From NCBI GenBank assembly GCA_014382585.1, contig JACNJL010000046.1:1-40032 (forward strand): DNA of 40,032 nt, written 5' to 3'. The notes beneath the pieces were generated by a model. It was not told where the DNA came from. It was given only the letters and a program-made list of their open reading frames with translations, and made no database searches. Position 1 is the stretch's first letter; every line of letters begins with the position of its first letter. Positions 6,429-20,910 of the stretch are shown in pieces. This stretch comes from Limisphaerales bacterium. Its GTDB lineage: Bacteria > Verrucomicrobiota > Verrucomicrobiia > Limisphaerales > UBA1100. The position numbers and the translations under genes are program-made.

Positions 6429-7859
6429 ATGAATCAATTCGATCTCTTTCCTTCCGACGTCAGCCGCCGCGCCTTTCTGGGTAAGGCCGGCTTGGGCAGC
6501 CTGGGCCTTGCCTCGCTGTTGAATCCCTCGTTGATGTCCGCGGACCGGCCGCAGATTGACAAGTGGCCGGGCATCCTCGCCAAGCCACATCACAAGCCGA
6601 AAGTGAAACGGGTGATCCACCTGTGCATGGCCGGTGGCGCGAGTCATTTGGAGACGCTCGATTACAAGCCGAAGCTGCGCGAGATGGATGGCAAACCGAT
6701 GCCCAAAAGCATCACCGAGGGCCAGCCGATTGCGCAGTTGCAGGGCAAGCGCAACAATTTGACCTGCCTCGGGCCGCAACATGATTTTCAGAAGTTTGGC
6801 CAATCCGGCCAACACATTTGCAATCTCTTCCCGCACATCGGGAGTGTGGCCGATGACATTGCGGTTATTCGTTCGTTGACCACCGATGCCATCAATCACG
6901 ATCCCGCCCACACCCTCATGAACACCGGCACCACCATCAGCGGCCGGCCGAGCATGGGGTCGTGGATGCTGTACGGGCTCGGCGCGGAAACCGAAAACCT
7001 GCCCGGCTATTGCGTGCTCATCTCACGCGGCGGCGGACAGGACCAGCCCGTGGCCGCCCGGCAATGGCACGCGGGCTTTTTGCCCAGCCGTTTTCAGGGC
7101 GTGCAGTTGCGGGGGAAGGGCGATCCCGTTCTCTATGTGAAACGCCCCGACGGCGTGGATGCCGATCGCCAGCGCGATGTTGTCGATGCGGTGCAACAGC
7201 TCAACCAACTGCAGAACGCCGCCGTGCAGGATCCGGAAATTACCACGCGCATTTCGCAGTACGAGATGGCCTTCCGCATGCAGATGAGCGTGCCGGAGCT
7301 GGTCGATATTTCCAAGGAACCCAAGGGCGTTCTCGACCTGTACGGTGCGCAACCCGGCGATGGCTCGTTTGCCAGCAACTGCTTGCTCGCCCGGCGCTTG
7401 GCCGAGCGCGGCGTGCGGTTCATCCAACTCTATCACCGTGGTTGGGATCATCACGGCGGCATCAAGGGCGCCATGCAAAATACCGCTAAGATCGTCGATC
7501 AAGGCGTCGCGGCGCTGATCAAGGATCTTAAGGGTTCCGGTTTGTGGGAAGACACGCTCATCCTGTGGGGCGCCGAATTTGGCCGCACGCCGATGGCGCA
7601 AGGCAGCGGGCGCGATCACCACATCAAGGGCTTCAGCTGCTGGTTCGCCGGCGGCGGCATCAAGGGTGGCATGAGCTATGGCAACACCGACGATTTCGGC
7701 TATAACGCGGTGGAAAACGTCGTGCACGTCAACGATCTCCACGCCACCATTCTGCATCTCATGGGTGTCGACCACGAAAAGCTTACCTACCGCTTTCAGG
7801 GTCGCGACTTCCGGCTGACCGATGTGCACGGGAAAGTGCTCAAGCCGATCTTGGCCTGA
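6429..7859 (+). CDS. DUF1501 protein, Tat-exported (first of tandem pair)
   Basis: A 476-residue DUF1501 protein, a family with an alkaline-phosphatase/sulfatase-like fold that in PVC genomes sits next to DUF1549/DUF1553 genes. The N-terminus has a twin-arginine signal (SRRAFLGKAG, then a hydrophobic stretch). Conserved blocks include HLCMAGGASHLETLDYKP, GQSGQHICNLFPHIGSVADD, DAINHDPAHTLMNTG, and near the C-terminus WGAEFGRTPMAQGSGRDHH and FQGRDFRLTDVHG. The acidic and histidine residues in DHH and in WDHHGG suggest a metal site, but the substrate is unknown. The next gene is a close paralogue; the four-helix cassette separates this gene from its PSCyt1 partner. Confidence 0.92.
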   Translation: MNQFDLFPSDVSRRAFLGKAGLGSLGLASLLNPSLMSADRPQIDKWPGILAKPHHKPKVKRVIHLCMAGGASHLETLDYKPKLREMDGKPMPKSITEGQPIAQLQGKRNNLTCLGPQHDFQKFGQSGQHICNLFPHIGSVADDIAVIRSLTTDAINHDPAHTLMNTGTTISGRPSMGSWMLYGLGAETENLPGYCVLISRGGGQDQPVAARQWHAGFLPSRFQGVQLRGKGDPVLYVKRPDGVDADRQRDVVDAVQQLNQLQNAAVQDPEITTRISQYEMAFRMQMSVPELVDISKEPKGVLDLYGAQPGDGSFASNCLLARRLAERGVRFIQLYHRGWDHHGGIKGAMQNTAKIVDQGVAALIKDLKGSGLWEDTLILWGAEFGRTPMAQGSGRDHHIKGFSCWFAGGGIKGGMSYGNTDDFGYNAVENVVHVNDLHATILHLMGVDHEKLTYRFQGRDFRLTDVHGKVLKPILA

Positions 7860-7864
7860 TTTTT

Positions 7865-7930
7865 AACCGAAGAGGCATAGATAAGATGATTGGAAAAAAC
7901 TCTGTGCTCTCTGTGTCTCTGTGGTGAATC
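7865..7930. repeat. CTCTGTG-type dispersed repeat (decayed palindrome)
   Basis: The sequence just upstream of the second DUF1501 gene is a run of CTCTGTG/CTCTCTGTG units ending in GGTGAA, preceded by a degenerate reverse-complementary arm (AACCGAAGAGGCATAG). A related, GC-richer version (GCGTCTCTGCGCCTCCGC) lies at 37263-37280. It resembles intergenic repeats I associate with PVC and other environmental genomes. It can be read through in frame, which gives a false N-terminal extension of 16 residues to the downstream gene. Confidence 0.5.
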
Positions 7931-7937
7931 ATTCATC

Positions 7938-9347
7938 ATGATAACCGACCTAAATCGCCGCGCTTTCTTTGGGCGGACGGGCTTGAGTTTGGGCAGCGTG
8001 GCGCTCGCCGCTCTGGGGGCGGGCCGCAAGACGGAGCGTTGGCCGGGCGTGGTGCGACCGTTGCATCATGCGGCGAAGGTGAAGCGGGTCATCTATTTGT
8101 ACATGTCTGGCGGTCCATCGCATTTGGAGACGTTTGATGCGAACAAACCGGAGCTGGTGAAGCTGGACGGCCAGCCGATGCCGGCATCTTATACTCAGGG
8201 GCAATCGATCGCGCAGTTGCAGAACCAGAAGCTCGCCTGTCTGCGGCCGCAGTTTCCGTTTAAAAAATTCGGCCAAAGCGGCACGGAGATGACCACGCTC
8301 TTTCCGCATCTTGCCAAGCACATTGATGATCTCGCGGTGATTCGTTCGATGCACACTGATGCCATTAATCATGATCCGGCTAACACTCTCATGAACACCG
8401 GCACCACCATTAGCGGTCGGCCGAGTATGGGCTCGTGGATCCAGTACGGACTCGGTAGCGAGTCGGAGGATTTGCCGGGGTTCGTGGTGCTCAGTTCGCA
8501 TGCGGGGCGCAGTCCGCAGCCGATCTCCGTACGCATGTGGCATGCGGGATTTTTGCCGAGCCAGTTTCAGGGGATTCAACTGCGGTCCACCGGCGATCCG
8601 GTGATGTACGTGCGCCGGCCTGGCGGCGTGGATGCCGCGCGCCAACGCGATATAGTTGATGCCGTGCAGGCACTCAACGAACTGCAGGCACCGCTCACGC
8701 ACGATCCGGAGATTGCCACGCGCATCGCGCAGTACGAAATGGCGTTCAAAATGCAGTCGAGCGTGCCGGACCTGATGGATCTCACGAACGAACCGGCCGA
8801 GGCACTCGACCTCTACGGCTGCAAACCCGGCGACGGTTCCTTTGCCAGCAACTGCCTGCTTGCGCGGCGCTTAGCTGAGCGGGGAGTGCGGTTCATCCAG
8901 CTCTATCATCGCGGCTGGGATCATCACAATGGTCTCGTGGATTACATGCAAAACCACTGCGGCCCGTCCGTGGACCGCGCCATTGCCGGGTTGCTGACCG
9001 ATCTCAAGCGCAAGGGTATGTTTGAGGATACGTTGATCGTGTGGGGCGGCGAATTCGGTCGCACGCCCATGGCCCAGCGCAACAAGGGCGCCGTGGGTCG
9101 TGATCACCACATGAAGGGTTTTAATCTTTGGCTCGCCGGCGGCGGCATCAAGGGCGGCGTCACCCACGGCACCACCGATCCACTCGGCTATAACGCCGAG
9201 GAAAACCGCACCCACGTCAACGACCTCCACGCCACGCTCCTGCACCTGCTCGGCATCGACCACGAAAAACTGACTTACCGTTTCCAGGGTCGCGACTTCC
9301 GGCTGACCGATGTGCACGGGGAATTGATTAAGCCAATTCTCGCCTAA
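7938..9347 (+). CDS. DUF1501 protein, Tat-exported (second of tandem pair)
   Basis: A 469-residue paralogue of the preceding DUF1501 protein, alike along its full length: YLYMSGGPSHLETFDANKP, DAINHDPANTLMNTGTTISG, WHAGFLPSQFQGIQLR, WGGEFGRTPMAQRNKGAVG, then RDHHMKGF. The start at ATG 7938 gives MITDLNRRAFFGRTGLSLG, a twin-arginine signal. A 36-base stretch near the 3' end (9285-9320) is identical to 7797-7832 of the first copy, while flanking third positions differ, suggesting recent gene conversion. The DHH motif is kept, so both copies are likely functional. Why two copies follow one PSCyt1 gene is unclear; distinct substrates are possible. Confidence 0.92.
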   Translation: MITDLNRRAFFGRTGLSLGSVALAALGAGRKTERWPGVVRPLHHAAKVKRVIYLYMSGGPSHLETFDANKPELVKLDGQPMPASYTQGQSIAQLQNQKLACLRPQFPFKKFGQSGTEMTTLFPHLAKHIDDLAVIRSMHTDAINHDPANTLMNTGTTISGRPSMGSWIQYGLGSESEDLPGFVVLSSHAGRSPQPISVRMWHAGFLPSQFQGIQLRSTGDPVMYVRRPGGVDAARQRDIVDAVQALNELQAPLTHDPEIATRIAQYEMAFKMQSSVPDLMDLTNEPAEALDLYGCKPGDGSFASNCLLARRLAERGVRFIQLYHRGWDHHNGLVDYMQNHCGPSVDRAIAGLLTDLKRKGMFEDTLIVWGGEFGRTPMAQRNKGAVGRDHHMKGFNLWLAGGGIKGGVTHGTTDPLGYNAEENRTHVNDLHATLLHLLGIDHEKLTYRFQGRDFRLTDVHGELIKPILA

Positions 9348-12345: not shown

Positions 12346-13587
12346 ATGAAAAAAATTCTTTTTTCTCTATGGCTATCCCTGAACGCAGCAAACGGAGTGC
12401 ACGCGGAAAACTGGGCGCAGTTTCGCGGTCCGGAGGGTGCCGGGATCAGTAATGACAAAGGCATTCCGTTGCAGTGGTCGACGAAGGATTATGCGTGGAA
12501 AGTAAAACTCGCGGGCATTGGGCATTCGTCACCGGTGGTTTGGGGAGACACGGTGCTGGTGACTTCCGCCGTGCGCGCGGGCGAACGGCGGGCGTTGCAG
12601 GCGTTTGACGCCGGCACCGGAAAAATAATCTGGACCGAACAGCTCGGTGGAAACACGCACAAAAAACACGCGCTCAACAGTTATGCCTCGGCCACCCCGT
12701 GCACAGACGGGAAACTGGTTTTCGTGGCGTGGGGTGACAACGACGAGTATTTCATGGTGGCGCACGACCTCAAGACGGGGAAGGAAACATGGCGCACACA
12801 ACTGCCGCCCTCATTGAGCAAGCACGGGCATGGCACGGCAACCTCGCCGATTATTTTTGAGGACCTTGTAATTCTCCTGAACGAACACGACACCGGCCCC
12901 GGCTACATTGTGGCGTTAAATAAAAATACAGGCAAACAGCAGTGGCGGATCAAGCGAACGATCGAAATCATGACCTACGCCACACCCATCATTATCGAGG
13001 TGAACGGCAAACCACAGTTGATCAATTCCTGCCTTGATGACGGACTGATGGGCATCGATCCCCGAAAGGGCACGGTGCTGTGGACGACGCCCGGCAAATT
13101 CGATCTACGCACCGTGGCGATGCCGGTGCATTGGAAGGGGATGGTTTACGGCAGCTGCGGCGGGGGCGGCAAGGGCAAGCTGATGCTGGCGGTAAAGGTG
13201 GGCGGCACGGGCGATGTTAGCGGGAGTCACATTGCGTGGACACGCCAACGCTCGTTGCCCTACGTTCCCACGCCGATTGCCTACGGTGATCACATTTATT
13301 TGTGGCTGGACAATGGCATCGTCATTTGTGCAGACGCAAAAACGGGCAAAGAAGTTTGGAATGAGCGTGTGGGCCGTGGCGATTTTTCCAGCTCGCCGGT
13401 ATGCATCGCCGGCAAAATTTATTGCAGCTCACGCACGGGGGAATTCACCGTGATCGACGCCAGCCCGGAATTCAAAACGCACGGCCGCAGTCTGCTTGGC
13501 GAAGCCACCCACGCCACGCCGGCGGTGAGCAACGGTCGGATGTTCATCCGCGGCTTTGAACACCTCTTTTGTCTTGAGGCAAAGTAG
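12346..13587 (+). CDS. Secreted PQQ-like beta-propeller protein (BamB-like), copy 1
   Basis: A 413-residue secreted propeller. The start ATG 12346 gives a Sec signal (MKKILFSLWLSLNAANGVHA); an in-frame ATG 16 codons upstream is rejected because it would precede the signal. The mature protein begins NWAQFRGPEGAGIS, a hallmark of the secreted PVC pyrroloquinoline-quinone-like repeat proteins. Blade motifs recur: AFDAGTGKIIWTEQLGG, LKTGKETWRTQL, LNKNTGKQQWR and ADAKTGKEVWNE. True PQQ binding is not shown; the fold may be a scaffold or carbohydrate-related. A paralogue follows at 14218. The TAG stop directly abuts the TAG stop of the convergent gene. Confidence 0.9.
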   Translation: MKKILFSLWLSLNAANGVHAENWAQFRGPEGAGISNDKGIPLQWSTKDYAWKVKLAGIGHSSPVVWGDTVLVTSAVRAGERRALQAFDAGTGKIIWTEQLGGNTHKKHALNSYASATPCTDGKLVFVAWGDNDEYFMVAHDLKTGKETWRTQLPPSLSKHGHGTATSPIIFEDLVILLNEHDTGPGYIVALNKNTGKQQWRIKRTIEIMTYATPIIIEVNGKPQLINSCLDDGLMGIDPRKGTVLWTTPGKFDLRTVAMPVHWKGMVYGSCGGGGKGKLMLAVKVGGTGDVSGSHIAWTRQRSLPYVPTPIAYGDHIYLWLDNGIVICADAKTGKEVWNERVGRGDFSSSPVCIAGKIYCSSRTGEFTVIDASPEFKTHGRSLLGEATHATPAVSNGRMFIRGFEHLFCLEAK

Positions 13588-14139
13588 CTATTGCTTCACG
13601 GGAATAAATTGCACGGAATCCACGATGACGTATTTGCCTTCGGTGCCGGTGGTGCGGATGGTCACGAAACCGGCGCGGCCTCGTTTGAATTCAAATTTCC
13701 CCAGCGAACGGAAAAGTCGTTTGATCGGGGCCGGCTCGCCCTCGTTAATTTTTACGAGTGTCTCCCCGTTCGCGTGAGTGATGGTGATGGGCACGCCATT
13801 CGCACGGCGGATATTGGTGTTGTGCGACACGCGTACTTCGTACTCTCCGGCCCGCGGTAAATCGGGCGTGAAGGTGGCGCTCTTCTCGCCTTTTTTTTCT
13901 TTCATGTCGTGGATGTAACTGACGCCCACAAAGGGCGGCGTGTGCACACTGTGTTTCCATTGACCGACGAGCTTGGCCTCGGTGTTGTCCACCACGATGC
14001 CGGGGAGTTTGGATTTATCCAGGACGATGAATTTGATGTTTTCGGGCTTATCAACCTCATCCGGCCGGGGCAAGCGCGGCTCATCAGCCGCAATACTCAT
14101 CGCGATTACAAACAGACCCAGTGCGTGTGGCAATTGCAT
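13588..14139 (-). CDS. Secreted golvesin C-terminal-like domain protein
   Basis: A 183-residue protein with a signal peptide (MQLPHALGLFVIAMSIAADE). Most of the mature part is one beta-sandwich of the golvesin/xanthan-lyase C-terminal type: IVVDNTEAKLVGQWKHS, GEYEVRVSHNTNIRRANGVP, then FVTIRTTGTEGKYVIVDSVQ. In PVC bacteria this domain usually ends large FAD oxidoreductases or DUF1553 proteins; here it stands alone. It may bind polysaccharide. ATG 14139 was chosen because the signal then starts at the N-terminus. The gene is convergent with the propeller gene with no base between the two stops, and divergent from the second propeller. Confidence 0.8.
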   Translation of the reverse strand: MQLPHALGLFVIAMSIAADEPRLPRPDEVDKPENIKFIVLDKSKLPGIVVDNTEAKLVGQWKHSVHTPPFVGVSYIHDMKEKKGEKSATFTPDLPRAGEYEVRVSHNTNIRRANGVPITITHANGETLVKINEGEPAPIKRLFRSLGKFEFKRGRAGFVTIRTTGTEGKYVIVDSVQFIPVKQ

Positions 14140-14217
14140 TGAATAAAAATGCCCTCCCAAAAGATCGCTTGCAAATCAATTTGCGCTCCGCCGATTCCCC
14201 CCCTATTCTGGCGGCCA

Positions 14218-15453
14218 ATGAAACGCTCTATTTTATTTCTCGTGTTCAGCGCGGTACTGACGATTCCAGCCGCGCAGTGGAACCAGTTTCGCGGGCCCAA
14301 TGGCGCGGGCAAAACGGATGCCAATCTGCCGCTCGCGTTGGGCGAGGGGAAGCATCTGAAATGGAAAACGCCGATGCCGGGTAAGGCGTGGAGTTCGCCG
14401 GTGGTTTGGGACGATCAGATTTGGTTCACCAACGCCGAAGCGGACGGCCACAAGCTGTGGGCCGTGTGCCTCGATGCCGGCACGGGCAAGGTGGTGCACA
14501 ACAAATTAGTGTTCGAAATTGCCAATCCGCAGAAGAGCCCCGTAGCGATGAACAGCTACGCTTCGTCCACGCCGGTGATTGAGGCGGGGCGCGTGTATGT
14601 GACGTTCGGCGCGCACGGCACGGCTTGTCTCGACACCAAAACCGCCAAGACAATTTGGAAACGGCAGGAGGACGACGAATTGTACTGCGACCATTTCCGG
14701 CTGCCCGCCAGCTCGCCCATCCTCAGCGGCAACACCTTGTTTCTGCAGTTCGATGGCGCGGACAAGCAATTCGTCGTGGCACTCAACAAAAAAGATGGTG
14801 AAACCCAATGGCTGCACAAACGCGCCTTTGATTTTGGCACAGACAATGGCGATCGCAAAAAAGGTTATGGCACGCCCTCACTCATTGTGAATGGCGACAT
14901 GCCGCAACTGATCACCCCCGCCGCCGTGGCCACCGAGGCGTTGGATCCGGACACGGGGAAATTGCTTTGGACCGCCCGCACCGGCGGCATGAATGCCTCG
15001 GGCATCCCGCAGTTTGGGCACGGGTTGGTGTTCATCAACAACGGGATGGGATCGATGAGTGCTATTCGCCCAAACAAAAAGGGCGACCTCGAGGCGGTAT
15101 GGAGCTCGCGCCGCAACATAGCCAAAAAATCTTCAATGCTCGTCCAAGGCGATTACATTTATATGGTGGCCGACAACGGCGTGGCGACGTGTCTTGAAGC
15201 CAAATCCGGGAAATCAATCTGGAGCGAACGCCTCAATGCCGGCGAGTTCGCCGCCTCACCCATCCTGTGCGGTAACCGAATTTACTGCTTCAGTATAAAA
15301 GGCAACGCGGTGATTTTCGCCGCCGCACCAAAATTCAAAATTCTGTCTCAAGGAAAATACGAAGACGGTTTTATGGCCACCCCCGCCGTAATCGGCAACG
15401 CATTGATTTTGCGTACCAAGTCGGCGGTGTATCGCGTGGAAGGCGGAAAATAA
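14218..15453 (+). CDS. Secreted PQQ-like beta-propeller protein (BamB-like), copy 2
   Basis: A 411-residue paralogue of the protein at 12346. The start at ATG 14218 gives a Sec signal (MKRSILFLVFSAVLTIPAAQ). The mature protein begins WNQFRGPNGAGKTD and carries blade motifs CLDAGTGKVVHNK, LDTKTAKTIWKRQ, LNKKDGETQWLHKR, LDPDTGKLLWTAR and LEAKSGKSIWSERL. It is probably periplasmic. An upstream in-frame ATG (14149) is unlikely because it adds a non-signal segment. The two copies flank a golvesin-domain gene, so the three may act together at the envelope, but that is inference. Confidence 0.9.
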   Translation: MKRSILFLVFSAVLTIPAAQWNQFRGPNGAGKTDANLPLALGEGKHLKWKTPMPGKAWSSPVVWDDQIWFTNAEADGHKLWAVCLDAGTGKVVHNKLVFEIANPQKSPVAMNSYASSTPVIEAGRVYVTFGAHGTACLDTKTAKTIWKRQEDDELYCDHFRLPASSPILSGNTLFLQFDGADKQFVVALNKKDGETQWLHKRAFDFGTDNGDRKKGYGTPSLIVNGDMPQLITPAAVATEALDPDTGKLLWTARTGGMNASGIPQFGHGLVFINNGMGSMSAIRPNKKGDLEAVWSSRRNIAKKSSMLVQGDYIYMVADNGVATCLEAKSGKSIWSERLNAGEFAASPILCGNRIYCFSIKGNAVIFAAAPKFKILSQGKYEDGFMATPAVIGNALILRTKSAVYRVEGGK

Positions 15454-15544
15454 CCCAGGTCCAATGACCAAACGCACATTGAGAATTTTTTGAATCTCTC
15501 TAAATGTTTGCGTGCTTTTTCGCGTCAGATTGATTGGCGCCACG

Positions 15545-16933
15545 ATGCTACATTTCACTGACAACTCGACCTGCCGCCGGAATTTCCTTTCCGTGGGTAG
15601 CCTTGCGCTCGGGGGATTGGCGTTGCCGGAGTTTTTGCAGGCGCAGGATGCCTTGCAAAAACTCGGCGGTGTGGCGAAGGATAAAACCGTGGTCTTCCTC
15701 TTTATGCACGGCGGGCCATCGCAGACGGAGACGTTTGATCCGAAAATGGGCGCGCCCTCGGGCATTCGCAGTATGACCGGCGAAATCCCCACGCGCATTC
15801 CGGGGGTCACGTTTGGGTCCACGTTTGAAAAGCTTGCCCAGCTCAACGACAAATTTTCCATTGTACGATCCTTCACCACCGGAAGTGGGGCGCATGACTC
15901 CAAGCCCATCGTCAGCAAATTTTCGAAGGACGCCCACGTCGGCTCGCATTACACTCGCGTGGCTGGGGCAAGCCATCCGGAAACGGGTATGCCCCGCAAC
16001 ATTTGGCTCCATCCGCAGGCCGTGGATACGAACGCGGCGGATCCCATTATGTCGCTGGGCAAATTTAATGTCACCGGACCGCTGGGGCCTGCGCACGCGC
16101 CCTTTCAGCCAAGCGGCAAGGGAGACGCCCGCGCCGACATGCAGCTGACGGTGGATCCCAACCGGCTCGGAGACCGGAAGACATTGCTCGCCAGCCTCAA
16201 CCAGTTCCGGCGCTCGGTAGAAAGCGGCGAGGCGACGGCGGGGTTGGACAAATTTCAAAGCCAAGCCTTTGAGACGTTAACCGGCGGCGTGTCAGACGCG
16301 TTTGACATCGCAAAAGAAGATCCAAACGTGCTGGCGCGATACGACACCTCCACGCTAATGAACGTGGAGCGCATCAGCAAACGCTGGAACAATCGCAAAC
16401 GATATCAAAACCACGTGAACAATCTCGGCAAGCTCATGCTGATGGCGCGGCGGTTGGCCGAGCGCGGCGCGGGCTTTGTAACCGTGACTACTGATTTCGT
16501 TTGGGACATGCACGCGGACAGCAACAACGCGACGATGACCGAAGGCATGGGCTACGTGGGCACGCCGTTTGATCACGCAGTGAGTGCCTTCATCGAGGAC
16601 GTGGAAGCGCGCGGATTGCGCGACAAAATTCTGCTCGTCTGCTGCGGCGAGATGGGGCGTACGCCTAAAGTGAACGCCAAAGGCGGCCGCAATCATTGGG
16701 CCGGCAGCGCGCCGCTTTTGCTTTACGGTGGCGGCCTGAAGATGGGGCAAGTGATCGGCGCTTCCACCAAAGACGGCGGCGAACCGGCCAGCGATCGCGT
16801 GACCATCCCCAACCTTTACGCCACGCTGATGGAGCAACTGCTCGACACCGGCGCCGTCCGCGCAATGGCCGGCATCCCCAAAGAAGTCAACGACGTCATC
16901 AACGGCGCCGCGCCGATTCGGCAGTTGATGTGA
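15545..16933 (+). CDS. DUF1501 protein, third copy, divergent subgroup
   Basis: A 462-residue DUF1501 protein. The start at ATG 15545 gives MLHFTDNSTCRRNFLSVGS followed by a hydrophobic stretch, a Tat-type signal. Family blocks are present: FLFMHGGPSQTETFDPKMG, SGIRSMTGEIPTRIPGV, RNIWLHPQ, then CCGEMGRTPKVNAKGGRNHW. It belongs to a different subgroup from the tandem pair: the metal-site region reads GGRNHWAG rather than GRDHHMKG. No DUF1549/DUF1553 partner gene lies beside it, which is unusual. A short stretch upstream (CCAATGACCAA near 15462) recalls the repeats flanking the four-helix cassette. Confidence 0.9.
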   Translation: MLHFTDNSTCRRNFLSVGSLALGGLALPEFLQAQDALQKLGGVAKDKTVVFLFMHGGPSQTETFDPKMGAPSGIRSMTGEIPTRIPGVTFGSTFEKLAQLNDKFSIVRSFTTGSGAHDSKPIVSKFSKDAHVGSHYTRVAGASHPETGMPRNIWLHPQAVDTNAADPIMSLGKFNVTGPLGPAHAPFQPSGKGDARADMQLTVDPNRLGDRKTLLASLNQFRRSVESGEATAGLDKFQSQAFETLTGGVSDAFDIAKEDPNVLARYDTSTLMNVERISKRWNNRKRYQNHVNNLGKLMLMARRLAERGAGFVTVTTDFVWDMHADSNNATMTEGMGYVGTPFDHAVSAFIEDVEARGLRDKILLVCCGEMGRTPKVNAKGGRNHWAGSAPLLLYGGGLKMGQVIGASTKDGGEPASDRVTIPNLYATLMEQLLDTGAVRAMAGIPKEVNDVINGAAPIRQLM

Positions 16934-17011
16934 TCTGCTGCCGGCATCTTATCTAAATGAACAAGGCAGAAGACGGTGCGGATTCAACAATCCGATTTGA
17001 TCAATGAAATT

Positions 17012-17527
17012 TTACTTATTGTTTTTCTTGACACCAAATTTGACTGGAGGCTTTATGTTCGGCCAAACTTGAAATTTTTTGTATTTCTTGATCCAGCCAG
17101 CACTCATTTTTGCTTGACCAATTATAACACCCCCGGTTTTTTTATCATTAAATTTTTCAAATGAAAAAGTGTAAACCAAATTAACCTCTTCTTTTTCAAG
17201 GTCCGGAAGACGAACAGCCATATATATTGGATCCCCCTTCGCGTTCTTCATATCTCCTTTTGGAGAATAATAAAAATACTTGTAAGATACAAATACTGGC
17301 TTCTTGCCTCGAAAAATCCCATCGGGTCTGAGCCCTAAATACTCAAACGTATTTGGAAGAGGCTTTCCATTCTTTAAATAATTATGATCATAGACAATTG
17401 CGACTCGATTCATTGCAGCCCAAATTGCCATATCATCATTGGACAGCCTAGTTAGAGTTCCTTGCTTGCCGCAACCCCAAACTGCCACCAAAAAAACCCC
17501 AGCTAAAAAATATAATTTTATTTTCAT
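17012..17527 (-). CDS. Lipoprotein of unknown function, in AT-rich island
   Basis: A 171-residue lipoprotein: signal MKIKLYFLAGVFLVAVWGC with the Cys of the lipobox at residue 19. The mature part (MAIWAAMNRVAIVYDHNYLKN, FVSYKYFYYSPKGDM, FSFEKFNDKKTGGVIIG) is Lys/Tyr-rich with no motif I recognise. The gene is clearly AT-richer than its neighbours, with many ATA/AAA codons. It starts 8 bases after the stop of the upstream caspase-like gene, so the two are probably co-transcribed, and they may work together. Confidence 0.75.
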   Translation of the reverse strand: MKIKLYFLAGVFLVAVWGCGKQGTLTRLSNDDMAIWAAMNRVAIVYDHNYLKNGKPLPNTFEYLGLRPDGIFRGKKPVFVSYKYFYYSPKGDMKNAKGDPIYMAVRLPDLEKEEVNLVYTFSFEKFNDKKTGGVIIGQAKMSAGWIKKYKKFQVWPNIKPPVKFGVKKNNK

Positions 17528-17535
17528 TTACTTTC

Positions 17536-18777
17536 CTAGTCCAATGGTTTTGCCGCTTTATCAAAAAGTCCTTTCCAAGTTCCCCACCAACCTATTCCAC
17601 GGGGCCCAGATGCTGATGACAACATTCCATCACTCCCGTAATATGTGCCATTTTCTGAAACCAACGAACTCCACGGTTGATAATCTGCGTAGCAAAAATA
17701 TGACAACAAAAACCCATACCGCGCAAGACCTTGTTCACCGTTGCCGGGATCCACGATAACAGGATTAAAATTTACAGGAGTCTTTGCGGTATCTTCATTT
17801 TCATCATCCCACTGAAATGCCCCATTCATTTCATATGTGTCATCGACCCAAAACCACCCTAAATTATATTTAACCGTACCGTGTCCGAACATCATTAGGC
17901 CCCACACATCATCCTCCATAGTGGCTCGATTGTAATATTTAGCTACATTATCACCATCTTCAATTCTAAACAACTCAACGGCAAACCCATTTTCCATTGC
18001 CGCATCTGCAAGCTTTGTGTACCATAACAACATATGCGTTTTCGCTAACGTACTGGCACCCCCTGATGCTATCACAACTGTATTCGGCACTGAATAAATT
18101 GTGTCAATTACAATATCATCATCAGAATTGACACCATTTCCATTTTCGTCAAGCAGCCACAAATGTGAGTCTCTGGAATCCAGACGTGTGAATTTTGCAG
18201 CACCTTCAATTGTCGCACCAGTTCCAGACCGAATTAGTGCCCGGTTTTTTGATTTGTCACGAAATCCCTCAACCCATTCCCAAGGAGGCCCCTCAACCAT
18301 ACCCCCATCGGTATCATCCACATCACCCGGTTCCCCTTCAGGGTCATCATTAGGGCCATTAAGCCCACTTAAAAACAACTCAAATATCCACCGCAACTCC
18401 CAATCTTCCCAATCAAACTGTTCGAATTCTTCCATACCAATAAGTTCAGACCAATTCTGAAAAACAGAATTGCCAGACAATGCTGCCACGGCGGGAATGA
18501 AATCACCTGGATAATTTTGCCCCATCCATTCTTCAAATTCGTATATGTTGATGGTTGAGAATCTGTACTCAAACCACTCAAACTCATTGCTCACTACTTC
18601 GAGAACTGGGTCATTTTGGTAAAGGTAATTCGTGTCACCGATAAATTCCCCAACAATCCGAAACGCCTCCATCTGCCACGCTTCTTCAACAAAGGAACCC
18701 TCTTGGGCGTAAGTTTTTTGAGGCTGAAAAAACATTGTCACGAGAGCGACGACTATAATTGTCATAATATTTTTCAT
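17536..18777 (-). CDS. Secreted protein with predicted caspase-fold (clan CD-like) peptidase domain
   Basis: A 413-residue exported protein (signal MKNIMTIIVVALVTMFFQPQ, then KTYAQEG). The C-terminal part follows the caspase-hemoglobinase order: strand TVVIASGGA, helix LWYTKLADAAMENG, strand AVELFRIEDG, helix, hydrophobic strand ending in His-Gly (VWGLMMFGHGT, His299-Gly300), then a hydrophobic strand ending in Cys (YGFLLSYFCYAD, Cys362). This His-Gly plus Cys pair is what clan CD peptidases (caspases, gingipains, CHAT) use. The first 170 residues are acidic, Trp/Phe-rich and without recognised motif, ending in an Asp/Gly linker (DDPEGEPGDVDDTDGG). ATG 18777 was preferred over an upstream ATG since it begins the signal. 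I call the fold from motif spacing only. AT-rich composition suggests acquisition. Confidence 0.55.
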   Translation of the reverse strand: MKNIMTIIVVALVTMFFQPQKTYAQEGSFVEEAWQMEAFRIVGEFIGDTNYLYQNDPVLEVVSNEFEWFEYRFSTINIYEFEEWMGQNYPGDFIPAVAALSGNSVFQNWSELIGMEEFEQFDWEDWELRWIFELFLSGLNGPNDDPEGEPGDVDDTDGGMVEGPPWEWVEGFRDKSKNRALIRSGTGATIEGAAKFTRLDSRDSHLWLLDENGNGVNSDDDIVIDTIYSVPNTVVIASGGASTLAKTHMLLWYTKLADAAMENGFAVELFRIEDGDNVAKYYNRATMEDDVWGLMMFGHGTVKYNLGWFWVDDTYEMNGAFQWDDENEDTAKTPVNFNPVIVDPGNGEQGLARYGFLLSYFCYADYQPWSSLVSENGTYYGSDGMLSSASGPRGIGWWGTWKGLFDKAAKPLD

Positions 18778-18961
18778 ATTATTTTTGTTTGATGTCTTTC
18801 CTGAAGGTAAATTCGATTTTACACATTGCCGAACAAAAAGACTTGCCTTTTGTGTCATAGAAGCTTTTTGGGGGTCATATGTACATTAAGACTTCGATTT
18901 CTAGATTATTGTACGCCCATCCGCGCCCTCGGCAAGATCCAACAGACAATTTGTGTTGAAA

Positions 18962-19147
18962 TTAGTGTCGAGGGCGATTTGCCTGCTGGGGGGAGGCTCC
19001 GGCATCGATGAGGTTTAAACCTTTCGCGATGAATTCCCTGCGCTCTTCGGGAGATTGCGGGTTGGCAAGTCGACGCGCCTTGGCGGCCAGACGTGAGCCT
19101 GAAGTCTCATCCGGGTATTCGGCAGTTTGGGTTTTGGCCTTTTTCAT
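18962..19147 (-). CDS. Small hypothetical protein (61 residues)
   Basis: A short charged protein starting at an internal ATG (19147): MKKAKTQTAEYPDETSGSRL, then AAKARRLANPQSPEERREFI and AKGLNLIDAG. The pattern of a Lys/Arg-rich helix, a P-E-E-R-R turn and a second helix recurs in small PVC proteins of unknown function; some sit beside toxin genes, so an antitoxin-like role is possible but unsupported here. The reading frame stays open upstream to 19390, but that part has no coding look. It lies at the edge of the AT-rich island, transcribed in the same direction as the caspase-like gene, with about 180 bases between them in which I see nothing else. Confidence 0.5.
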   Translation of the reverse strand: MKKAKTQTAEYPDETSGSRLAAKARRLANPQSPEERREFIAKGLNLIDAGASPQQANRPRH

Positions 19148-19205
19148 CGTTCTCGCTGTAGATTCACCTTCGATCTTTTTGCCTGAAAAGTCAAATGGGG
19201 ACAAC

Positions 19206-19227
19206 GTGCTGCCCGCAGCACATTTTT
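19206..19227 (+). terminator. Terminator-like hairpin
   Basis: GTGCTG (19206-19211) and CAGCAC (19216-19221) form a tight stem with loop CCCG, followed by TTTTT at 19223-19227. No plus-strand gene lies just upstream, so it may limit an antisense or read-through transcript. The remainder of 19228-19401, upstream of the MscS gene, shows only an AT-rich stretch and no clear promoter. Confidence 0.3.
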
Positions 19228-19401
19228 GCGTGAATACTTCGGCGGGTTGCTCTGTCACACCTGCAAGTTTCAAACCCATAAAACTGGCGTTTTTTATTGC
19301 AAAAAGCGGCTTTTTGGGCCATTTTACGCAAGTTTTAAAGGAGGTTTGTTTCCTGTGAATGCCGACGGAACAGGTGTGTTCCGGCGGCACAGTGGTATTT
19401 T

Positions 19402-20910
19402 ATGAATTTTGTGTCCCGCATTTGGCTGCCTTCGGCGGTGTTTGTGGCGTTTCTTTTGGCGCTGCTCAACCGTGAGGGCTTGTATAAAGACTTTGTCGAA
19501 AACGGCAGGTTTGTGTCGGAGGGGTTGTTTACTCACGGCGTGCAAATCGGCGCGTGGATCTCGGCGGCGTTTTTGGTGAACCGGTTGATCACGGTTTTTT
19601 TCTGGGATGGTTTCATCGGCGCGTTGTCGGAACGGCGGATTCCGCGTTTGCCAAAGGACGTGACGGGGATTGTGATTTTCTCTATCGCGGGTCTTGCGAT
19701 TGCGTCCACAGTGTTTCATCAGGACACCACAAAAATTATCGCCGCCTCGGGCGCGGTGAGCATTGTGGTGGGGCTGGCGTTGCGCACGGTGATTCTCGAT
19801 TTGTTTATGGGCTTGGCCATTCACGTGGATCGGCCGTTCAAAATGGGCGACTGGATTATGGTGCATCAAAACCGCGTGGAGACGCACATCGTCGCGGAGA
19901 TTATCGAGATCAACTGGCGCACCACACGGCTGCGCACCACGGCGAATAATATGGTGGTGGTGCCCAACAGCAAACTGGGCGAAACGATTGTGACCAATTA
20001 TATGGAGCCCACGCCGCATTTCCGGATGGAGCTGGATTTCGTGATCGATTTCGAAGTGCCCGTCGAGCGGGCCACGCGAGTGTTGACCGGAGGCATCCGC
20101 GCCGCGTGCGCGCACGAAGGTATTCTCGCCAAGCCGGAACCGGAAGTGCGGATGAAGGAATCTTCGCTTAACGGGATGGTGTACGAGGTGCGTTATTTCA
20201 TTTTACCCCGCCACATTTCCCCCAATGAATCGCGGCATGAAGTGAACCGAACGGTGCTTGAACATTTGGTGCATTCAGGTATCATGCCAGCGCACTCGAA
20301 GGAGGAGGTGACCTTGACGCGCGGGAAACAGCGAACGCTGGATGCGTCGCTGGATGAGGACTTGTACCAACTGCTCACGCGCACGGAATTGTTCCGCAGC
20401 CTGAGCGCGGGCGAATTCGCGAAGGTGTTTCCCCAAATGCACAAGCGCACGCTCGCGGAAGGCGAGGCGCTGTACGCGCAAGGCGATGCGGGCGATTCAC
20501 TCTTCGTGTGCCTTGAAGGATTGCTGGAGCAGTTTGTGGATGGCCCGAAGGAGCGGGTAAAAGTGGACACGTTGCGAGCCGGCCAACATTTTGGCATCGC
20601 CTCGGTGCTGGACGGCACGGCGCGGGCCACCACGGTGGAAGCGGGCACGGAGGTTTTGGTTTATGAAATCGGAAGGGACGCGTTCGCGCCGTTGTTGAAA
20701 AATCACGACGAGTTTCGGGCGCTGCTGGAGGAGGGCGCGAAACAAGCAGCAGACCAAATTCAGAAAAAGCAGGGGGCGGCGCAACGCGCCAAACAATCGA
20801 AGGCGAAGGGGGAAAAGAAAACGGCGATGCAAAAGGTGATGCAATCGTTTTTCCCGGGCTTCACAAAGTCAGATAAAAACAAGGCGGATGATGGGGATGA
20901 ACAAACATAA
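19402..20910 (+). CDS. MscS-type mechanosensitive channel fused to cyclic-nucleotide-binding-like domain
   Basis: A 502-residue inner-membrane protein. Hydrophobic segments near residues 5-24, 43-66, 86-107 and 110-140 form the membrane part; the last is the MscS pore helix and beta domain (KIIAASGAVSIVVGLALRTV, HVDRPFKMGDWIMV, VVVPNSKLGETIVTNY). A C-terminal cyclic-nucleotide-binding fold covers about 330-440 (LFRSLSAGEFAKVF, GDAGDSLFVCLEGLL, ARATTVEAG). Its phosphate-binding cassette keeps the Arg (ARATTV) but has Ile where the ribose-contacting Glu normally sits (GIASVL), so ligand binding is uncertain. The Lys/Gln-rich tail is cytoplasmic. It overlaps the next gene, so this channel and a secretin are co-translated. 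Confidence 0.9.
   Translation: MNFVSRIWLPSAVFVAFLLALLNREGLYKDFVENGRFVSEGLFTHGVQIGAWISAAFLVNRLITVFFWDGFIGALSERRIPRLPKDVTGIVIFSIAGLAIASTVFHQDTTKIIAASGAVSIVVGLALRTVILDLFMGLAIHVDRPFKMGDWIMVHQNRVETHIVAEIIEINWRTTRLRTTANNMVVVPNSKLGETIVTNYMEPTPHFRMELDFVIDFEVPVERATRVLTGGIRAACAHEGILAKPEPEVRMKESSLNGMVYEVRYFILPRHISPNESRHEVNRTVLEHLVHSGIMPAHSKEEVTLTRGKQRTLDASLDEDLYQLLTRTELFRSLSAGEFAKVFPQMHKRTLAEGEALYAQGDAGDSLFVCLEGLLEQFVDGPKERVKVDTLRAGQHFGIASVLDGTARATTVEAGTEVLVYEIGRDAFAPLLKNHDEFRALLEEGAKQAADQIQKKQGAAQRAKQSKAKGEKKTAMQKVMQSFFPGFTKSDKNKADDGDEQT

Follow-up and report, generated by a model that had tools for sequence, protein, structure and literature searches.

Polymorphic toxins ending in caspase-like domains have been described as carriers of Tox-Caspase tips, with Imm36 or Imm57 as partners; the phyletic list given for these tips contains neither Verrucomicrobia nor Lentisphaerae, and Imm65, which confers immunity to Tox-JAB-1, was the sole lipoprotein immunity family in the same 2012 collection (Zhang et al. 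2012, PMC3482391). A further interbacterial cysteine protease toxin, the papain-like Cpe1, is encoded with its immunity protein Cpi1 and has the cytoplasmic targets GyrB and ParE (PMC12136450). The gene pair reported here, P0001 and P0002, resembles the Tox-Caspase systems in that a caspase-like His/Cys domain, found at the C-terminus of Rhs-type toxins, is followed by a candidate immunity gene. It differs from them in that the P0001 family has no Pfam-A or NCBIfam match and carries a LysM-like segment in front of the domain, P0002 matches no Pfam family, and the P0001 carrier is not an Rhs protein. The pair would share with Cpe1-Cpi1 the arrangement of an interbacterial cysteine-protease toxin and an adjacent immunity gene, but the residue order here is caspase-like and the partner is predicted to be extracytoplasmic. 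Imm65 is likewise a lipobox-anchored immunity protein, whereas in the present case the lipobox follows caspase-like tips, likely in P0002 too. Caspase-like toxin tips are thus already known; the tip subfamily, the LysM-like fusion, the lipoprotein partners, and the non-Rhs carrier are new. As an explanation of the whole locus, we consider it probable that P0001 and P0002 form a toxin-immunity module like those of polymorphic toxins.

The window, i.e. the whole stretch of 40,032 nucleotides that was analysed, contains the following features at this locus:

16947 to 19218, no strand: AT-rich island, missing at the same site in G004 (blastn of the window against G004; junction sequences).
17012 to 17527, minus strand: P0002, a 171-residue putative lipoprotein and proposed immunity protein (translation; position; homologue in G008).
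17536 to 18777, minus strand: P0001, a 413-residue exported toxin-like protein (translation; family alignment A5; no Pfam or NCBIfam family).
17692 to 17694, minus strand: codon of Cys362, the proposed nucleophile (invariant in 23 sequences).
17881 to 17883, minus strand: codon of His299, the proposed catalytic His (invariant in 23 sequences).
18085 to 18240, minus strand: LysM-like segment (GTGATIEGAAKFTRLDS ... YSVP; hhalign against six LysM domains of the same genome).
18962 to 19147, minus strand: ORF of 61 residues upstream of the toxin gene, on the right-hand side of the island, role unassigned; may be spurious.

Translation reproduced what the first-pass annotation had stated about the pair, i.e. 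two ORFs on the minus strand, the numbering of His299 and Cys362, and a spacing of 8 bp (17528-17535) between the stop codon of P0001 and the start codon of P0002. The signal peptide and the acidic, Trp-rich N-terminal part attributed to the larger product were also seen. P0001 consists of a signal peptide (residues 1-24), an N-terminal region (25-170) that is rich in Trp and acidic, a LysM-like segment (approximately 180-231), and a caspase-like domain (approximately 231-413), and its single cysteine is Cys362. The N-terminus, MKNIMTIIVVALVTMFFQPQKTYA|QEG with the cut at TYA|Q, looks like a Sec signal peptide.

Both genes are AT-richer than their neighbours, as had been suggested earlier. The GC contents of P0001 and P0002 are 0.433 and 0.364, and their GC3 values are 0.391 and 0.337, respectively, compared with GC3 values of 0.59-0.80 (about 0.70) in 21 other ORFs of the window, and chance is ruled out as the source of this difference. 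The pair lies in an island of ~2.27 kb for which an empty site exists in G004, a genome of the same genus: window positions 13506-16946 and 19219-20907 are contiguous there with 92-93% identity (blastn), and just a short terminator-like stretch separates the two flanking genes at the junction. The island is therefore either an insertion in the present genome or, less likely, was cleanly lost from G004, and its AT-rich composition favours gain over loss. The MscS-like gene to the right of the island is 90-92% identical in five of six genomes of the genus. The intergenic site itself is variable within the genus, since an extra DUF1501-like gene occupies it in G005 (L088, G005:C23:52000-62448, 7242-8788), with no toxin there; the end of a DUF1501-like gene is also visible at the site in G001, again with no toxin there, and the G001 contig stops nearby. 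DUF1501 genes and the other neighbours point to a bacterium of the PVC group, probably of the Verrucomicrobiota. Six further genomes from the genus were searched, and none of them has the P0001/P0002 pair. Inspection of the island for an integrase, a tRNA gene, or a clear target-site duplication was negative. These data support the gain of the island as one unit by this lineage, so that the acquisition first proposed from composition now has an empty site beside it. The 61-residue ORF has no match in Pfam or NCBIfam, and a longer, GTG-started version of it, which is probably spurious, runs across the island boundary.

P0001 was assigned to no family in Pfam, NCBIfam, PHROGs, or PADLOC, with no PADLOC defence-system match above chance, and no relatives were found in viral contigs, genome contigs, or plasmids. 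A search of 384 genomes of the class yielded two faint relatives of the tip (L016 and L017). The profile built from these and the P0001 tip (A1) was run on 320 genomes of the order and gave matches in 11, the weakest of which (L028) was judged to be no relative and dropped; a profile of 11 sequences, run on 289 genomes of the phylum, gave matches in 13. The profile searches gave a total of 22 divergent relatives of P0001 residues 171-413. Four weak matches (L004, L005, L007, and L008) belong to a conserved small cytoplasmic gene and were thus rejected as relatives. With few exceptions, the 22 homologues form the C-termini of Rhs proteins or of Rhs stubs, beginning after the end of the Rhs core (RDPIxExGGxNLYGF). 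Closest to P0001 is the tip of the Rhs protein L058, with 36% identity over 237 residues, including SGPRGIGxWGxW, and the two sequences were grouped inside the Rhs tips in a maximum-likelihood tree (support 100/99). The same C-terminal domain is therefore carried by Rhs proteins, by signal peptides with an Rhs stub (L029, L031, and L056), and by P0001. Downstream of four of the tips (L020, L021, L047, and L052), more Rhs C-terminal fragments with other tips were observed, in the manner of the usual arrays of orphan tips.

P0001 resembles Rhs proteins and orphan Rhs tips in that its homologues end Rhs proteins or stubs and are followed by small ORFs and sometimes by more tips, but its N-terminus is a different exported domain and its genome lacks an Rhs core. 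The Rhs core (TIGR03696) had no match in the genome itself or in 12 other sampled genomes of the family, and P0001 contains neither Rhs repeat nor Rhs core; for these reasons, it was not filed as an Rhs protein. The lack of a core in the genome and in the family sample argues that the tip is not a fragment of an Rhs gene left in place, and that P0001 is an Rhs-type tip placed on another exported protein. Among the genomes searched, the N-terminal region is common only to G008, which belongs to another genus of the family. The three short relatives named above (L029, L031, and L056) consist of a signal peptide, joined directly to 40-60 residues from the end of the Rhs core, and the tip, and each is followed by a lipoprotein. 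At L029 (G281:C30:41685-45290), two consecutive genes share the signal peptide and the Rhs-end stub (MRWYSPSTGRWLSRD) and differ in their tips, and this locus reads as short, exported toxins of the Rhs type arranged in an array.

Only four elements are invariant across the 23-member alignment A5, namely one Trp, a Pro-Asn pair, His299-Gly300, and Cys362 (columns H129, G130, and C192 for His299, Gly300, and Cys362), and the same residues are invariant when the catalytic part is aligned alone (A9). The two residues on which the first-pass annotation had staked its reading are thus retained in 23 divergent members. They stand in VWGLMMFGHG (His299) and YGFLLSYFC (Cys362), i.e. His-Gly and then Cys, each ending a hydrophobic strand, and this clan CD-like order, with an alpha/beta pattern preceding it, is kept in all 23 sequences. 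When the family was compared by hhalign with five Peptidase_C14 domains from related genomes, the strand-Gly-His-Gly stretches were aligned in register (score 29.4, P 0.0013, 23 columns), and none of 199 column shuffles scored as well (null maximum, 19.5). This agreement adds to the earlier observation of residue order. The resemblance to Peptidase_C14 and clan CD (caspases, metacaspases, gingipain, and clostripain) thus comprises an ordered His-Gly and Cys after predicted strands and a weak profile-profile match, whereas at the sequence level no clan CD family matched P0001 significantly in Pfam, NCBIfam, or PDB sequences, and the fold is putative. In a PDB sequence search with the 11-sequence profile, the top match was a caspase with the His and Cys aligned (E 0.15). 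This match was lost with the 23-sequence alignment, for which the top match was SSRP1 (a chance match), and for that reason it was not taken as proof.

A toxin tip that uses its His and Cys in another kind of cysteine enzyme of unrelated fold, such as a transglutaminase-like enzyme or a deamidase, would fit the missing clan CD match and the AlphaFold models from single sequences, in which the pLDDT was too low for use (32.5 for the whole protein and 32.1 for the tip). Such an enzyme is unlikely, considering the strand-HG and strand-C order with the preceding alpha/beta pattern, the in-register Peptidase_C14 alignment that exceeded all 199 shuffles, and the fact that the sole other invariant polar residue that could be catalytic is the Asn of the PN motif. 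We regard a caspase-hemoglobinase fold of the P0001 tip as quite likely. The segment in front of the caspase-like domain was aligned with the LysM domains by hhalign over 41 columns (score 21.4 compared with 18.7 for the best of 200 column shuffles), and no Pfam match of P0001 to LysM (PF01476) was found at E values up to 1. It may hold the tip at the cell wall. Both hhalign matches (Peptidase_C14 and LysM) are supporting rather than proving, because their alignments span just 23 and 41 columns, respectively.

P0002 was found where a partner lipoprotein had been announced, 8 bases downstream of the larger gene, and its lipoprotein nature is putative. Its N-terminus resembles a signal sequence and places Cys19 in LVAVWGC; compared with the lipobox [LVI][ASTVI][GAS]C, the Cys is in place and the W at position -2 is atypical. 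The homologue in G008 (YFACSC) also has the Cys in place and an atypical residue at -2, and the lipobox of P0002 is hence plausible but atypical. A partner ORF, defined as an ORF of at least 75 residues on the same strand starting -16 to +92 bp from the toxin stop codon, is present in 22 of the 23 relatives, and all 22 ORFs have an N-terminal hydrophobic segment or a lipobox; in the same test, 8 of 21 ordinary window genes were followed by such an ORF. A short ORF directly after a toxin tip is the usual immunity layout, and P0002 as well as the ORFs of 22 of the 23 relatives have the position and size of an immunity gene. Conservation of the pair in relatives, which the first-pass annotation had named as a check, was therefore observed as a recurrent arrangement and, for P0002 itself, in G008.

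The partners are of unrelated kinds, including an ankyrin lipoprotein (L017) and a carboxypeptidase-regulatory-like lipoprotein (L055), and such variety is usual for immunity proteins. A lipobox was seen after the caspase-like tips of L017, L025, L029, L031, L055, and L056, and at L031 (G589:C90), two paralogous lipoprotein ORFs lie in tandem after the tip, like a duplicated immunity gene. Another group of partners shares the pattern DxWGxP...SxGPNxxxxxGxGDD (L016, L020, L021, L022, L029, L045, L046, and L047). Members of this group resemble the major pseudopilin GspG, with a sub-threshold T2SSG match in L045 (E 0.049). The DxWGxP / GPNxxxxxGxGDD pattern prompted the question of whether P0002 is akin to these partners or to GspG, but for P0002 such a kinship was not supported. 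No relation of P0002 to the immunity-like proteins of the Rhs loci was detectable, and when 388 genomes of the phylum were searched with its profile, no further copy emerged. A control set of Rhs proteins of the same order, whose tips are of other kinds in at least L066, L068, and L071, has an adjoining membrane protein or lipoprotein ORF in five of six readable cases. Since these controls have similar neighbours, extracytoplasmic action is not specific evidence for P0001.

The same neighbourhood bears on whether P0001 could be a secreted housekeeping or processing peptidase that matures the organism's own surface proteins, and for which the lipoprotein would be a substrate, an anchor, or a regulator; processing would then be the task of the homologous Rhs tips as well. 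Most caspase-like domains in polymorphic toxins are indeed releasing peptidases (Zhang et al. 2012, PMC3482391), and the clan CD members clostripain and gingipain are secreted. In the family, however, the domain lies at the extreme C-terminus, which is the toxin position and leaves nothing beyond it to release, a small ORF follows the tip directly in 22 of 23 relatives, and the gene is patchy, being intact in one and a relic in another of the 20 genomes of the family that were searched. We consider such a processing role improbable and prefer the toxin-immunity reading. Of the first-pass interpretation, the residue pattern (now with the Peptidase_C14 register), the recurrent pair, and the acquisition stand, whereas the role given to the partner and the view of P0001 as a self-maturing or surface-processing peptidase are replaced.

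The best single evidence for P0002 as an immunity protein comes from G008 (L002 / L043, G008:C79:8773-9672), where a relic of the toxin gene lies beside an intact P0002 homologue. Of the toxin gene, only the first 112 codons (33% identity) and a 3' remnant are left, and the part for the peptidase domain is gone; the homologue of P0002 shares 38% identity over 131 residues (E 3e-23, BLASTP). The G008 pair is AT-rich too (0.46 compared with 0.60-0.63) and also adjoins a DUF1501 gene, at a different locus. Immunity genes that outlast their toxin gene are known as orphan immunity genes, reported for example for Rhs (PMC10539506), and the G008 locus has this pattern. The pseudogene in G008 and the absence of the pair from the six other genomes of the genus would also suit a degenerate passenger, i.e. 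a tip that was transferred, sits on an unrelated exported protein, persists by chance, is already decaying, and has no function. The copy described here is intact, though, with its signal peptide, catalytic residues, and partner preserved, and because it is intact yet just 36% identical to its nearest relative, P0001 appears to have been kept through much divergence; a functionless passenger is accordingly very unlikely. P0002 most likely protects the producer from P0001.

For the proposed toxin-immunity module, a course of action can be outlined from the sequence features. P0001 would be exported by its Sec signal peptide, with the N-terminal domain serving as the carrier in place of the usual Rhs shell, and would be released or displayed after export, possibly in contact with the cell wall through the LysM-like part. 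The His299-Cys362 dyad, whose conservation was observed directly, may then cleave a competitor's protein in the envelope or periplasm. As judged from its position, its predicted localization, and its retention as an orphan, P0002 would be a lipoprotein anchored outside the cytoplasm that inhibits the toxin in the producing cell and in related cells. More tentatively, the phylum may possess a class of shell-free, Sec-exported antibacterial toxins that are short, borrow LysM-like plus caspase-like peptidase tips from Rhs proteins, and attack the envelope of competitors, with lipoproteins of diverse kinds as the antidotes. This class would include P0001 together with the mini-toxins that begin with a signal peptide (L029, L031, and L056), all of which have lipoprotein partners.

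The locus adds a subfamily that is divergent and unnamed, in which the dyad is invariant and an immunity-like partner is consistently present, together with one natural gain and one natural loss in which the partner gene was kept. It also places a caspase-like tip on an exported, Rhs-free carrier, in a family in which no Rhs core was found. If confirmed, the proposed module would suggest that killing can proceed by proteolysis in the envelope and that lipoproteins can inhibit caspase-like enzymes.
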